A DNA stretch of 55,148 nucleotides from Elusimicrobiota bacterium (GTDB taxonomy: Bacteria; Elusimicrobiota; Elusimicrobia; UBA1565; UBA9628): the NCBI GenBank assembly GCA_030696455.1, contig JAUYSH010000054.1, positions 1-55,148 on the forward strand, given 5' to 3'. Made by a program: the position numbers and the translations under genes. Positions 573 to 20,800 of the stretch are shown here, one piece after another; the stretch's first letter is position 1, and the number at the start of each line of letters is the position of its first letter. The notes beneath the pieces were generated by a model. It was given only the letters and a program-made list of their open reading frames with translations, was not told the origin of the DNA and did no database searches.

Positions 573-669
573 GGGCTCGTGGTGTAACGGCAACACGCCG
601 GCCTTATGAGCCGGTCAACACGCTCTCCTGGTGAGAGAGTCGATGGAGGTTCGATTCCTCCCGGGCCTA
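573..669 (+). tRNA. Aberrant tRNA with two anticodon arms (GGT Thr and TAT Ile)
   Basis: The acceptor arms 573-579 and 662-668 pair fully (two wobbles), the D-arm is 582-596, and the T-arm is 645-661 with loop TTCGATT. Between D and T arms there are two complete 5-bp/7-nt anticodon hairpins: 598-614 with loop CTTATGA (anticodon TAT) and 623-639 with loop CTGGTGA (anticodon GGT). Each is preceded by CAACACG (591-597 and 616-622), showing a 25-nt offset duplication. Removing one unit leaves a canonical-length tRNA-Thr(GGT) with a 5-nt variable loop. CCA is not encoded. It may be a tRNA-Thr with an insertion, a dual tRNA or a decaying gene. Confidence 0.7.
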
Positions 670-679
670 CGGATTTGAC

Positions 680-777
680 GGCGGCTATGTTGTGCGGGGC
701 GAGCCTGGCTCGCCCCGCACGCAGCAAGAGAGGTTGTGATCCTCTAAGTACCGGTTCGAATCCGGTTGGTCGCCCCA
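680..777 (+). tRNA. tRNA-His(GTG) with a long hairpin in the D-loop
   Basis: The anticodon arm is 729-745 (loop TTGTGAT, anticodon GTG) and the T-arm is 750-766. The 3' strand 767-773 pairs with 681-687, the discriminator is C774, and CCA is encoded at 775-777. G680 can serve as the G-1 that pairs with C73, a His identity element. The D-stem is TTGT/GCAA (690-693 with 724-727). The D-loop is about 30 nt and contains a perfect inverted repeat: 692-704 pairs with 708-720 around CTG, a 13-bp stem that partly competes with the D-stem. The usual A14 and GG of the D-loop are missing. Confidence 0.7.
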
Positions 778-1274: not shown

Positions 1275-1345
1275 GGGGTCGTGGTGAAACAGGATCACGG
1301 GACGCTCGCATCGTCCAGTCCCGGGGGCGGCACCCGGCGGCTCCA
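1275..1345 (+). tRNA. tRNA-Ala(CGC) with an unusual T-loop
   Basis: The acceptor GGGGTCG/CGGCTCC (1275-1281 with 1338-1344) contains the G3:U70 wobble, the Ala identity element. The anticodon arm 1300-1316 has loop CTCGCAT and anticodon CGC. The T-stem CCGGG/CCCGG (1321-1337) holds GGCGGCA instead of a TTCRA-type loop, so U54, U55 and A58 are lost. A345 follows as discriminator at 1345 and no CCA is encoded. Confidence 0.75.
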
Positions 1346-1404
1346 CCGGCTTCGCGCGACTATCCTCAAGGACGATTTATTCGCGGGGTTCTCCCCCGCA
1401 GTCT

Positions 1405-15932: not shown

Positions 15933-17375
15933 ATGCAATTGGCTCATGGCCGTGAAAGCCTCACTCGCATCGCCCACGAATCATTGTGCCGACTCGGGCT
16001 TCTTCCGCTCGGGGAGCGTTCTCGTCTGCGCCGGTACGCGGGGGCGGCCGCCGCGTTGCTTCTCGCGGAGGCGCTTGCCCAGCTTTTCCATCCCGCGATC
16101 CAAGGAGAGGTCTATTTCTTGTTTTATTTGCCGGCCGTCATTGCCGCGACATGGTACGGCGGCTTCGGTCCCGGAATGTTCTCCACCGCCGCCGGCGCGG
16201 GAATGGTCGCGCACCGCGGGATTTTTTTCACCGCGAGCGAGATCGAAAGCCTGGTGATATTCGTCTTGAGCGGAATTCTGATCAGCGTGCTCTACACGGC
16301 GCTGCGGACGGCGCTGGGCTGGACGAACGAGATCCTCGAGACGACCCATGACGCGTTCTTCATGCTCGACCGCAAGGGCCGCTTCCGCTACGTCAACCGC
16401 GAGGCCGAGAAGCTCTGGCTCCGGCGCCGCGAGGACCTCCTCGGCCGCCGGTATAAAGAGGCCTTTCCCGAGGCCATCGGCTCGGAAGCCTACCTCGCCG
16501 TCGAGCGGTCGCTCACGGGGCAGATTCCCGCGCGCCTCGAGACGATAGGCCCTATCAGCAAGACCTGGATCGAGATCCGCATCCGCCCTTTCGAAGGCGG
16601 AGTCAGCGTGTACTTCCACGACATCTCCGCGCACAAGATGCTGGAAAGAGCGCTCACGGGCCGCGTCGCGCGCAGCACGGCGAGATTCAAGGAGGTCAAC
16701 GACGAGCTCGATGCCTTCACGTACTCCGCGTCGCACGACCTGCGCGGCCCGGTCCGCAAGATCATGAACTACTGCGACTTGATCATCGGAAGCCCCTCGC
16801 CGGAGTTGCCCGAGGAGCAGCGCGCCTGGTTCCTGCGCATCCGCGCGTCCGCCGTGCAAATAGACCGCATCATCGACGAGATGCAGAACCTAGCCGAGGC
16901 CACGCAGAGCGAACTCACGATCGAGACCGTGGACCTGTCCGGACTCGCGCGCGAAGTGTTCGAGGCTGTCCGGAGGACGGACCCGGATCGGCGGTTCGCA
17001 TTCACCGTGGCTCCAGGGCTCACGGCGCGGGCGGATGCGCGCCTCTTCCGGCTCGCCCTCTGCAACGTCATCGACAACGCCTGGAAGTTCACCTCGCTGA
17101 AAGAGGAATCACGCATCGAATTGGGCGCGACGTCCGCTGACGGCGAGCCGGTTTTTTTCGTCAAGGACAACGGCGTGGGCTTCGACATGGCGCACGCGGC
17201 CAAGATGTTCATCGCGTTCGAGCAGCTCAATCAGCGCGACGCTTTTCCCGGCATGGGTGTGGGCCTCGCGATCGCCCAGCGCGTGATCCACCGCCACGGC
17301 GGCAAGATCTGGGCCGAGAGCCGCCCCGGCGAGGGCTCCACGTTCTATTTCACCTTGCCGATGGGGGCCGAGTGA
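15933..17375 (+). CDS. Membrane sensor histidine kinase (DUF4118-PAS-HisKA-HATPase)
   Basis: The 480 residues begin with hydrophobic helices (about 35-115) resembling the KdpD-type DUF4118 membrane unit. A PAS-like domain follows (about 130-225; ETTHDAFFMLDRKGRFRYVN), then a HisKA helix with the phospho-accepting His in SASHDLRGP (about 265). The ATPase domain has N-box VIDNAWKF, G1 DNGVGFD and G2 GVGLAIAQ. It autophosphorylates and passes phosphate to a receiver, most likely the one encoded next. TATAAT ends 9 nt before ATG 15933. Its stop overlaps the receiver start, so they are coupled. The signal is unknown. Confidence 0.9.
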   Translation: MQLAHGRESLTRIAHESLCRLGLLPLGERSRLRRYAGAAAALLLAEALAQLFHPAIQGEVYFLFYLPAVIAATWYGGFGPGMFSTAAGAGMVAHRGIFFTASEIESLVIFVLSGILISVLYTALRTALGWTNEILETTHDAFFMLDRKGRFRYVNREAEKLWLRRREDLLGRRYKEAFPEAIGSEAYLAVERSLTGQIPARLETIGPISKTWIEIRIRPFEGGVSVYFHDISAHKMLERALTGRVARSTARFKEVNDELDAFTYSASHDLRGPVRKIMNYCDLIIGSPSPELPEEQRAWFLRIRASAVQIDRIIDEMQNLAEATQSELTIETVDLSGLAREVFEAVRRTDPDRRFAFTVAPGLTARADARLFRLALCNVIDNAWKFTSLKEESRIELGATSADGEPVFFVKDNGVGFDMAHAAKMFIAFEQLNQRDAFPGMGVGLAIAQRVIHRHGGKIWAESRPGEGSTFYFTLPMGAE

Positions 17376-17782
17376 GCGGGCCCATCCTCTATGTCGAAGA
17401 CGACGACGACGACTGCACGCTCATGCTCGTGTGTTTTAAAGACCTCGGCCTCGGCGCGAGGATCGAATCGGCCCGCAACGGCATCGAAGCGCTCGACTAC
17501 CTCGAAAAGGCGTCGCGCGGCGAAACGGCCCTGCCCGCCTTGATCATCGCCGACATCAAGATGCCGAAGATGGGCGGCCTCGAGCTTCTCGAGCGCGTGC
17601 GGGCGAACGCCTTGCTCGACGGCATCCCGTTCATGATCCTGACCGCGTCGGGAGACAAGCGCGATCGCGCCGAAGCCGCCCGCCTGGGCGTCGACTCCTA
17701 CCGCAGGAAACCGACGAGCAAGACCGCGTACCTGGAGCTGGGGGCCGAGATCCTGAGGCTCCTCGAGAAAGCCCCGGCCTAA
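17372..17782 (+). CDS. Single-domain response regulator (Rcp1-like)
   Basis: The 136 residues form one CheY-like receiver: acidic EDDDDD near residue 10, the phospho-accepting Asp in IIADIKMPKMGG near residue 63, a Thr in ILTASGD, and the conserved Lys in YRRKPTS. There is no output domain, as in Rcp1/phytochrome-partner regulators that signal by protein contact. The GTG start at 17372 overlaps the kinase stop. A hairpin (CTCGGT/ACCGAG, near 17850) lies downstream before the convergent gene. Confidence 0.9.
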   Translation: MSGPILYVEDDDDDCTLMLVCFKDLGLGARIESARNGIEALDYLEKASRGETALPALIIADIKMPKMGGLELLERVRANALLDGIPFMILTASGDKRDRAEAARLGVDSYRRKPTSKTAYLELGAEILRLLEKAPA

Positions 17783-17874
17783 CGGCGGCGGACGGCGTGT
17801 CGAGCCGCGCCGGGCATGTTTATCTCAAGATTATCCCGGCGCCCCCGGAAACTCGGTCCAGGACCGAGCGCGGC

Positions 17875-20800
17875 TTACTTCAGGTAGCTTTCGAGGCCGC
17901 GGAGGCGGAAGTCGGCGTCGCGCTGGGCCTTCGGCGCGGACAGGGAGATCTTCATGTCGCCGTTCTTCTCGCGCCAGATCGCGGTGCCGCCGAGCGCGCT
18001 CTGCTCGCCGTACTCGAAGGTCAAGGTGAACGGCGCGGTCTTGCCCGTCGCGCGGCGCTTGGCGGCGCAGCGCGCGACGAGGTCGAAGAAGGCGCCGTCG
18101 CCGTAGGCCGACAGCAGCGGCGCCCAGTGCTCGTCGGCGACGGCGATGCTCAGGCCCTCGGGCCAGGACGGGTCGAGGGTCATCTCGGAGAGGCGCTCGC
18201 GCCCCATCGAGGTCAGGCGGGCCGCCAGCGCGCGCTCGCCGGCGGCGAAGCCGGCCAGCGCCTCGCGCTTGGCGGAAACGACCCCGCGCGAGAGCTTCTC
18301 GCGCTTGCGCGCGTCGAGCTGGTTGAAGGAGCGGGCGATCATCTCGACGCCGAGGTCCCCCGCCTTGCGTCCCCGGTCCACGGTCAGGCGGTCGAGCTCC
18401 TCGGCGGCGAGCATGAGCTGGATCATCGCGAGGTTGAGCTCGCGGCGCAGGAGGTCCGCGGCCCAGGAGGTCATCTCGGCCACCGCGCGCGCCGCGGCGC
18501 CCGCGAACTCCCCTTCGAGCACCCTTGAGATCTCCGCGCCGAGGCGAGTGCGGATGAAGGCGCGCATCTGCTCGGCGGTGCCCCCGGCTGGCGGCAGGAG
18601 CCCCTCGAGGTTCGGGCCGAAGCGCGCGCGCAGGGCGTCGGCCGCGGCCGGCGGCAGGGAGCCGAACACGGCGGCCGCGATCTGGCCCTGGTCGTAGGAG
18701 CCCGAGGCGACGAGGCGGTCGATCGCGGGCGCCAGCCTCTGGTCGAGCTCCGCCATCAGCCGCTCCCGGCCCAGCTCGATGAGGCGCCCCGCCACCATCT
18801 CGGAGGTGACGGCTCCGGGCGGGAAGCCGAGCTCGTCGCCCGCCCGCCGCAGCAGCCAGGGCTCGACCTCCCCCGCCTTGATGGGCGCCATCGGCGAGAG
18901 GCGGCTGTTGAGGGCGCCGGCCGCGGCGATGATGACCGGGGCATGGGTCTGGAACGTGATCGACTTGTCGAGGACGGGGATCTGGATCACCTGGGACTTG
19001 GACAGCGCCTCGAGCAAGGCGCGGCGGCCCGCGGAGACGGCGATCGCGTTCCAGGACTCCTGGTCGCCGATCAGGCGCAGGAGCTCGACGGCGCGTCCCG
19101 CGTCGGCGCGCAGCGACTCGAGAAGCTCGGCGCGCGAGGCGCCGTCGCGCACGCGCGCGAGCACGGCGTCCATGCCGGGGCCCAGCGTGTCCGTGATCGC
19201 CTGCCGCAGGCGGGCGTCGACGGGCGAGCCCGGGGGCACGACGCGCAGCAGGGCGTCGCCGAGCAGCCGGCGCTGGGCGTCGGTGAGCGGCAAGGTCCCC
19301 ATCCGCTCGATGAGCGCCCCCGCGGCCTCCGGGCTCAGGCGCGAGAGCGACAGCGACAGCGCGTTGAGGCCGGCGTCGATGCGCGCCGGGGCGGCGTCCA
19401 CGTCGATGAGGCGGGCGAGGTCGGTCGCGCGCTCGGCCGCCTCCACGCCGTCGGCGATCGCCTGGGTGACGACGCGGGTCGCCTCCGGCAGGAAGGGACG
19501 CAGGGGCGCCGCCTTCACGTCGTATTCGCCGCCGAAGAGGTGGTCGACGGTCAGGCGCGAGTCGCCGCGCCCGCGCTTGCCGTCGAGGCTGATCGTGACG
19601 CCGAGGAGCACCGCGTTCGAATCGAGCTCGGCGTTGCCGTATTGGATGCGGTCGCGCTCGACGGCGAGGTAGGCCAAGGTCCGGTCGCTCAATTGCGCGT
19701 CCACCTGGAGGCGCGCCTTCTCCCGGTCGAACTCGATCGCGTCGCCGCGCTCGCGGCTGTACTGGGCGCGCACGGCCACGGGCACGCGCCGGAAGCTCGT
19801 CATCAGCGCCGCCTCGCCCTGCGTCGTCGTCGTGTCCTTGTTGTAGCGCTGGCCGACGGAGACGCTGAAGCGCGCGTCGTCCATGCCGGGCACCCGCCCC
19901 CACAGCCCGGTCGTCCAATGCGGCGCGTTCTCGAGGTGCAGGCCGGCCTCGGGCCTCCCCGAGCTGAGGAGCTCCTGGTAGACGCGGTTGCCGATCGGCG
20001 AGAGGTTCTGCATGGCGCCCCCGAACACCCCGAGGAACAGCTCGTCGCCGGGCAGGCGGATGCGAAAGCCGATGGACTCGTCGAAGGTCTGGTTGGGGGC
20101 GAGGTGCATCATCTTCGTCAGGCTCGTCACGCTCCAGGCGATGTCGACGGGCCCGCCGAGATGGTAGGCGCGCCCCAGCTGTGCGAGCACGCTCGAGATC
20201 ACGAGGCCCTGGGCGCGGTAGGCGTCGTCGTAGGACAGGCTCGAGCGGATCGCGTCGAGCTCGCGCTGCGGCGCGCCGAGGGAGCCCGCGAGATCGACCA
20301 TGCGGCCGACGCGCGGGTCGGGCCCGTCGTGGAAGAACCGGGCCTTCATGTCCACGTACGCGATCTGGGCGCGCACGCGGTAGTCCACCCAGGAGTCGGG
20401 CTTGCTCTCCCAGCCCTTGGACAGGTTGACGTACGGGCTCGGCGCGATGAGGTTCGTGCGTCCGTCCACGCCCAGCTGGCCGACCTCGAGGCTCGTTTTC
20501 GTGCGCGGGTTCGTCACCGTCACCGAGCGCACCGTCTCGTTGCGCACCCGGGCGTCGAAGATGAGCTGGTCGCCGGCCTTCGCCTGCGAGGGGTCGAGCG
20601 CGGCGGTCCCGTCGAAAACCCCGTCGAGGACCGCGCGCGCGCGCGTGAAGTCCTCGGCCGTCATGGGCTTGCCGTCGGCGCGCTGGATGTCGACGCCGAC
20701 CGGCACGGCCAGGCCGCGGGCGCGCAGGCCCGCCTCGTAGGCGTCGACGTGGCGGGTGCCGTCCGGCGTCAGGAAGCCCTTGGCGTCGACGAAGGTCTTC

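Follow-up and report, generated by a model that had tools for sequence, protein, structure and literature searches.

The window, by which we mean the whole stretch of 55,148 nucleotides analysed here, is contig C117 of a 4.0 Mb Elusimicrobiota genome in 147 contigs. It carries a tRNA array headed by a gene with two anticodon arms (573–669; this and all other window features below lie on the forward strand). A sigma-70-like promoter (TTGACA, 16 nt, TACAAT) can be read from the sequence upstream of the array at 241–268, and similar sites were found by eye at the corresponding place in the related genomes G052, G027 and G044. Between promoter and array, at 476–569, lies a leader with the mutually exclusive hairpins GGGCATGGG, CCCATGCTC and GAGCATGGG and then a T-run. 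It occupies the same place in G003, G052, G027 and G044, and a terminator hairpin is predicted in each of these as well as in the window; we regard the leader as a candidate attenuator-like element, in which an antiterminator and a terminator hairpin are predicted to compete immediately before the array. The rest of the array, as annotated by ARAGORN and Rfam, spans 699–1840 and consists of His (with a D-loop insertion), Phe, Lys, Ser, Arg, Ala, Arg, Val, Pro, Leu and Met tRNA genes.

The array is followed by what is left of an RtcB RNA ligase gene (1885–2121), only the C-terminus of which is present (Pfam PF01139, profile positions 343–426 of 426). The original prediction had drawn attention to this fragment and to a possible link with RNA processing. 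The fragment is real, and in the relatives the array is tied to RNA ligases: behind the array of G016 come a Band_7 protein and an intact RtcB of 390 amino acids, and G044 instead has a T4 Rnl1-like RNA ligase gene (PF09511; L088 7361–8389, forward strand) inside its array, followed by Band_7. The G044 array is also dense and covers most amino acids, as in the L-arrays, with 25 genes found by ARAGORN plus the two-arm gene; that of the window is reduced. The array is eroding, to judge by the reduction of RtcB to its C-terminus and by the extra sequence in the tRNA-His gene as compared with G016; the same is probably true of the two-arm gene.

Several further peculiarities of these arrays were recorded. 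Set against G016, the D-loop of tRNA-His (window 699–777) has an extra palindrome of about 27 nt, suggestive of a small mobile element or repeat. In four genomes the Ala(CGC) tRNA (window 1277–1348, L051, L053 and L054) has a T-loop of GGCGGCA or similar rather than TTCRA, and a Tyr-like tRNA has GGCAGCA. A class A RNase P RNA (121.6 bits) lies inside the G052 array (L053 17477–17803, reverse strand), and a similar RNase P RNA remnant is visible by eye in the G027 array. On contig C109 of G003 (L052, reverse strand, around 16900–19530), an IS21-type pair, by reading a transposase and an ATP-binding helper, interrupts the Ser tRNA of the array.

One tRNA gene with two complete anticodon arms

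The 97 nt of the two-arm gene can be assigned to tRNA elements throughout. The acceptor stem (573–579/662–668) pairs GGGCTCG with CGGGCCT, and after TG comes the D-stem (582–585/593–596), in which GTGT and ACAC enclose AACGGCA. Following a single G, the first anticodon arm (598–614) has the stem CCGGC/GCCGG (598–602/610–614) and the loop CTTATGA (603–609), with the anticodon UAU. An eight-nucleotide linker, TCAACACG (615–622), leads to the second anticodon arm (623–639), with the stem CTCTC/GAGAG (623–627/635–639) and the loop CTGGTGA (628–634), where the anticodon is GGU. TCGAT, a T-arm defined by the Rfam alignment (645–661) and the discriminator A73 (669) complete the gene. Both anticodon arms are complete, with 5-bp stems and 7-nt loops, and both lie between a single D-arm and a single T-arm. 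Each is preceded by CAACACG, and the repeat unit is 25 nt long. The linker thereby contains a second copy (D3'b, 618–621) of the ACAC that forms the 3' strand of the D-stem (D3'a, 593–596), so that the 5' strand GTGT (D5', 582–585) can pair with either.

Rfam (RF00005) scores the whole stretch as one tRNA at 57.5 bits (E 7.6e-10), above the family cut-off of 29 bits, with the second arm taken as an insert; our own model R1 gives 117.4 bits. The original prediction of two complete anticodon arms in one tRNA is thus upheld by the sequence, by the score over its full length and by conservation in relatives. Its identification as a tRNA-Thr(GGT) with an insert was mistaken, as is the ARAGORN annotation of tRNA-Thr (599–670): in relatives the gene is a tRNA-Ile(UAU) with a GAU second arm, and the GGU of the window is derived. 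Standard gene finders miss or mis-annotate the two-arm gene, ARAGORN reporting tRNA-Thr in the window or the UAU arm alone. A group I or BHB-type intron is ruled out by the size and position of the extra 25-nt unit, which sits between two intact hairpins and interrupts no loop.

The duplication is present in five other genomes of the same order, spanning three families: G016 and G003 belong to the same genus as the window genome, G027 to the same family, and G052 and G044 to two other families. As independent species carry the same gene, the assembly error that had been feared at the repeat is ruled out. Both arms of the relatives have isoleucine anticodons, UAU in arm 1 (CTTATAA) and GAU in arm 2 (CTGATTA, CTGATAA or CCGATAA). 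Because GAU is found in arm 2 of all relatives, GGU in the window is the derived state. Compared with its G016 orthologue (L051 494–590), the window gene has three differences in 97 nt, one in arm 1 (A37G) and two in arm 2 (A35G, U37G), all within the two anticodon loops (14 of the 97 positions; nominal p 0.003). The predicted fold of the window copy is misfolded, whereas for intact copies the predicted minimum-energy fold is a stable five-arm RNA. Given the three loop substitutions, the eroded array and the truncated RtcB gene, the window copy is probably a decaying member of the family. The suspicion that it is a dead gene is therefore probably right for this copy and does not extend to the family, which is conserved in independent species.

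In an alignment of eight sequences, 98.1% of cells are paired and 21 of 26 pairs have changed on both sides. Every stem covaries, which rules out a functionless tandem repeat. D5' pairs with both D3' copies in all eight sequences (100% of cells) through compensatory changes, the combinations being GTGT/ACAC/ACAC, GCTT/AAGC/AAGC and GTTT/AAAC/AAAC. Across the 124 genes of the wider family described below, D3'b pairs with D5' at four of four positions in 43 and at three of four in 60; the remaining 21 have short or other linkers, including mini GNRA-hairpins. The second D3' strand is thus characteristic of the long form, with its 8-nt linker, and is no universal feature, being absent from the short (Acidobacteriota) and spacer-hairpin forms.

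A wider family with an invariant GAU loop

Eremiobacterota (L106) and Blastocatellia (L126) joined the family through a pattern scan of 84,980 species genomes with covariance-model scoring, and one viral contig (L100) through the same pattern run on IMG/VR. The homologues in Eremiobacterota, Acidobacteriota and Hyphomicrobiales likewise lie in tRNA arrays. The gene is present in six Elusimicrobiota genomes, the window included, in eight further Acidobacteriota genomes and in one Hyphomicrobiales genome, and there are about 60 model matches in IMG/VR loci. We parsed 128 distinct sequences, of which 127 are tRNA-Ile(UAU)-like and 124 have the second loop in register. The Acidobacteriota genes are shorter (89–93 nt), and their extra hairpin, reached through a linker of 1–2 nt, resembles a class II variable arm. 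On viral contig L249 the two-arm gene adjoins a DnaB-like phage helicase, and on L211 the neighbouring proteins are not diagnostic. Ordinary one-arm Ile(UAU) tRNAs are also found on viral contigs (at least 78 distinct), which shows that phages can do without the second arm.

Full-length matches were absent from named phages, and the phyla of G343 (58 genomes) and G345 (149 genomes) gave no two-arm match; nor did the plasmid and cyanobacterial arrays reached through an HNH endonuclease gene. A weak match at L154 7938–8032 was rejected on reading the sequence. Members of the HNH family itself, at L106 5619–6284, at L126 1736–2395 and in some 100 plasmid records, lie beside tRNA arrays in several phyla, which could make the gene a useful marker for tracing such arrays.

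Because the first search patterns contained GAT, the second loop was masked in later searches. Model R3, in which this loop is N and which is therefore blind to the second anticodon, found nine genes in 396 Acidobacteriota genomes and one in 249 Hyphomicrobiales genomes, with GAT in 9/9 and 1/1. A viral pattern with the second loop free returned 66 distinct cores, GAT being present in 57/57 according to an automatic hairpin finder; of the remaining 10 (the two groups overlap by one), L183 has GAT with a stem mismatch and the others are, by eye, tmRNA ends or unrelated DNA. As a control, only one of 316 distinct Leu, Ser and Tyr tRNAs from the same loci has GAT in a 7-nt variable-arm loop.

The two loops differ in what they conserve, with the reservation that the following counts overstate significance because related sequences are not independent. 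Arm 1 has U33, U34, A35, U36 and A37 in 127/127 (in part because the search demanded TTATA), and position 38 is A in 50, C in 72 and U in 5. Arm 2 has G34, A35 and U36 in 124/124, again in part as a product of the search. U33, the base needed for codon reading, is present in only 7 of these second arms, against A in 110, C in 4 and G in 3. Position 37 is A in only 89/124, and A38 occurs in 119/124 second arms as compared with 50/127 first arms. The latter proportion can be set against 47/78 for viral one-arm UAU tRNAs among the matches listed, a modest gap that is not phylogenetically independent. On the same contigs, U33 is found in 42/50 separate Ile(GAU) tRNAs versus 0/50 second arms (distinct pairs). 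U33 is kept in arm 2 of the Elusimicrobiota f1/f3 and Blastocatellia copies, and G044 has C33. The discriminator is A in 126/127, which, with UAU in arm 1 and the relatives' GAU in arm 2 (GGU now in the window), gives the family the anticodons and discriminator of isoleucine tRNAs. As GAU is invariant and U33 usually lost, while separate Ile(GAU) tRNAs retain U33, the second arm looks selected for GAU and not for decoding: judged by these patterns, it seems to keep a synthetase-type signature and to tend to lose the decoding base.

No earlier description of a two-arm tRNA was found in our literature searches of open-licence papers; on the sequence evidence, this is a real and conserved architecture, undescribed as far as we searched. 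Its setting is reminiscent of the L-arrays, normally silent tRNA arrays that translational stress switches on, and of the Anabaena trn operon, whose 26 tRNA genes are repressed by TrcR along with rtcB and a slipin gene (PMC10272220). Here as there, the arrays are long and supernumerary and cover most amino acids, and RNA ligase and Band_7/slipin genes adjoin the arrays of the Elusimicrobiota relatives as well; HNH endonuclease genes accompany those of Eremiobacterota and Blastocatellia and are also present in plasmid arrays. The cyanobacterial arrays differ in that Nostoc L154 and Calothrix L155 gave no match to the two-arm model. The tRNA-Ile3(UAU) of Bifidobacterium, Mycoplasma and others, described as replacing tRNA-Ile2(CAU) (PMC8450103), is likewise an isoleucine tRNA with a UAU anticodon for AUA; the two-arm gene differs in its second anticodon arm and in that the hosts tested keep TilS (15/15). 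Class II tRNAs (Leu, Ser, Tyr) also have a hairpin between anticodon arm and T-arm, and the Acidobacteriota form looks like their layout, with a long variable arm directly after the anticodon stem. The two-arm gene departs from them in its isoleucine anticodon, 7-nt loop and invariant GAU and, in the long form, in a linker that repeats the D3' strand. The nematode nev-tRNA-Ile(UAU) is a eukaryotic tRNA with an extra V-arm that is misacylated with leucine in vitro (PMC4300185); it resembles the two-arm gene in anticodon and extra arm, and its abstract mentions no GAU loop. Finally, allo-tRNAs are bacterial tRNAs with unusual cloverleaves, of serine type and with 8/4 or 9/3 acceptor branches, UAU being among the commonest 8/4 anticodons (PMC7609411); here the branch is 7/5, with a second anticodon arm in addition.

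Possible roles of the second arm

A tRNA normally has one anticodon, which is read by both the synthetase and the ribosome. We propose that in two-arm tRNAs these two readings may have been separated, with the first arm decoding AUA and the second presenting the GAU signature to isoleucyl-tRNA synthetase (IleRS), which would permit charging in hosts that depend on TilS and lysidine. We put the probability of this at roughly 0.47. It is suggested by the retention of GAU, the loss of U33 and the presence of TilS in the hosts. Arm 1, always with U33, would read AUA. Arm 2, which usually has A38 and is placed between arm 1 and the T-arm, would be recognised by IleRS and, usually lacking U33, would not itself read codons. 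The anticodon, the discriminator A73 and t6A37 are isoleucine identity elements (PMC9976931). TilS is encoded in 15 of 15 host genomes tested, so that a lysidine tRNA is presumably what these hosts use for AUA, and a UAU tRNA presumably foreign to them; the second arm would enable its charging in hosts whose own AUA tRNA relies on lysidine. In the long form, including the window copy, the ability of one D5' strand to pair with two D3' copies implies that the RNA could switch folds, the D-strand pairing formed before one arm or the other perhaps distinguishing a charging fold from a reading fold. The fuller proposal, a class of tRNAs that carry identity and codon reading on two arms, with D-stem pairing behind either, that have spread with phages and mobile arrays and that allow AUA decoding independently of TilS, we hold a little more tentatively still. 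Several observations argue against the separation of charging and decoding. The second D3' strand is absent from the short and spacer-hairpin forms, viral contigs hold one-arm Ile(UAU) tRNAs as well, and A37 occurs in only 89/124 second arms. The Elusimicrobiota and Blastocatellia second arms, moreover, have U33 (C33 in G044), which, with no separate Ile(GAU) tRNA seen in the Elusimicrobiota arrays examined, fits dual decoding.

This last point leads to the best-surviving alternative, which is nonetheless unlikely, namely that one gene yields two tRNAs. Both tRNA-Ile(UAU) and tRNA-Ile(GAU) would arise either through alternative folding or through removal of the 25-nt unit, the RNA ends being sealed by the ligase linked to the array; the original prediction of a spliced insert or of two codons read belongs here. 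The compensated pairing of D5' with both D3' strands in all eight aligned sequences would suit such a scheme, as would the intact RtcB of G016 and the T4 Rnl1-like ligase of G044. Both loops of the Elusimicrobiota f1/f3 copies are canonical isoleucine loops, arm 2 retains U33, and these arrays showed no separate Ile(GAU) gene, so that a dual product or dual decoding is possible there. In most homologues, however, U33 of arm 2 is replaced by A, C or G, and a separate Ile(GAU) tRNA accompanies many of them. The short forms, moreover, lack D3'b, intact copies are predicted to fold into a stable five-arm RNA, and there is no known splice motif. Splicing into two tRNAs is thus possible mainly for the Elusimicrobiota form, and as a general role dual decoding is made less likely by the loss of U33 and by the Ile(GAU) genes found separately.

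Somewhat less probable again is a decoy or sensor role, the former already raised in the original prediction, in which arm 2 would act as bait for a toxin or anticodon nuclease directed at tRNA-Ile(GAU), so that the housekeeping tRNAs are spared. Loss of U33 could keep such a decoy out of translation, the gene is carried by phages and by stress-type arrays that include RNA repair genes, and the three window-specific substitutions all fall in the two loops. It would then be hard to see why the loop of arm 1 has stayed fully fit for decoding with UAU (U33 and A37 in all 127 genes) and why A is the discriminator in 126/127; moreover, no Ile-specific nuclease is linked to the gene, and the arrays provide nearly one tRNA per amino acid.

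At about the same low level, or just below it, we place a purely structural explanation, according to which arm 2 is a mere long class II variable arm and its GAU loop a leftover of tandem duplication or a tertiary contact. The Acidobacteriota form, with its 1–2 nt linker, does look like a class II variable arm. In addition, the anticodon arm of an Acidobacteriota tRNA with the anticodon CTC (L165 1501–1599, reverse strand) has recently been duplicated in tandem, with 24 nt repeated exactly, which indicates that such units arise by slippage and possibly pictures how the second arm originated. Against this, GAU is invariant while the stems and positions 32, 33 and 37 vary, and other class II tRNAs lack a GAU loop (1/316). 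That the gene is a functionless pseudogene or assembly artefact, in the window and elsewhere, is very improbable: the three loop substitutions, the tRNA-His insertion and the truncated RtcB speak for it in the window, but independent assemblies, many species and compensatory stem changes leave it tenable for that copy only.

If the separation of charging from codon reading proves to be correct, the conserved two-arm tRNA would be a natural instance of these functions being divided between two arms of one molecule, and a natural scaffold for tRNA engineers. It would also explain how phages and mobile tRNA arrays may supply a tRNA that reads AUA without the lysidine enzyme of the host.
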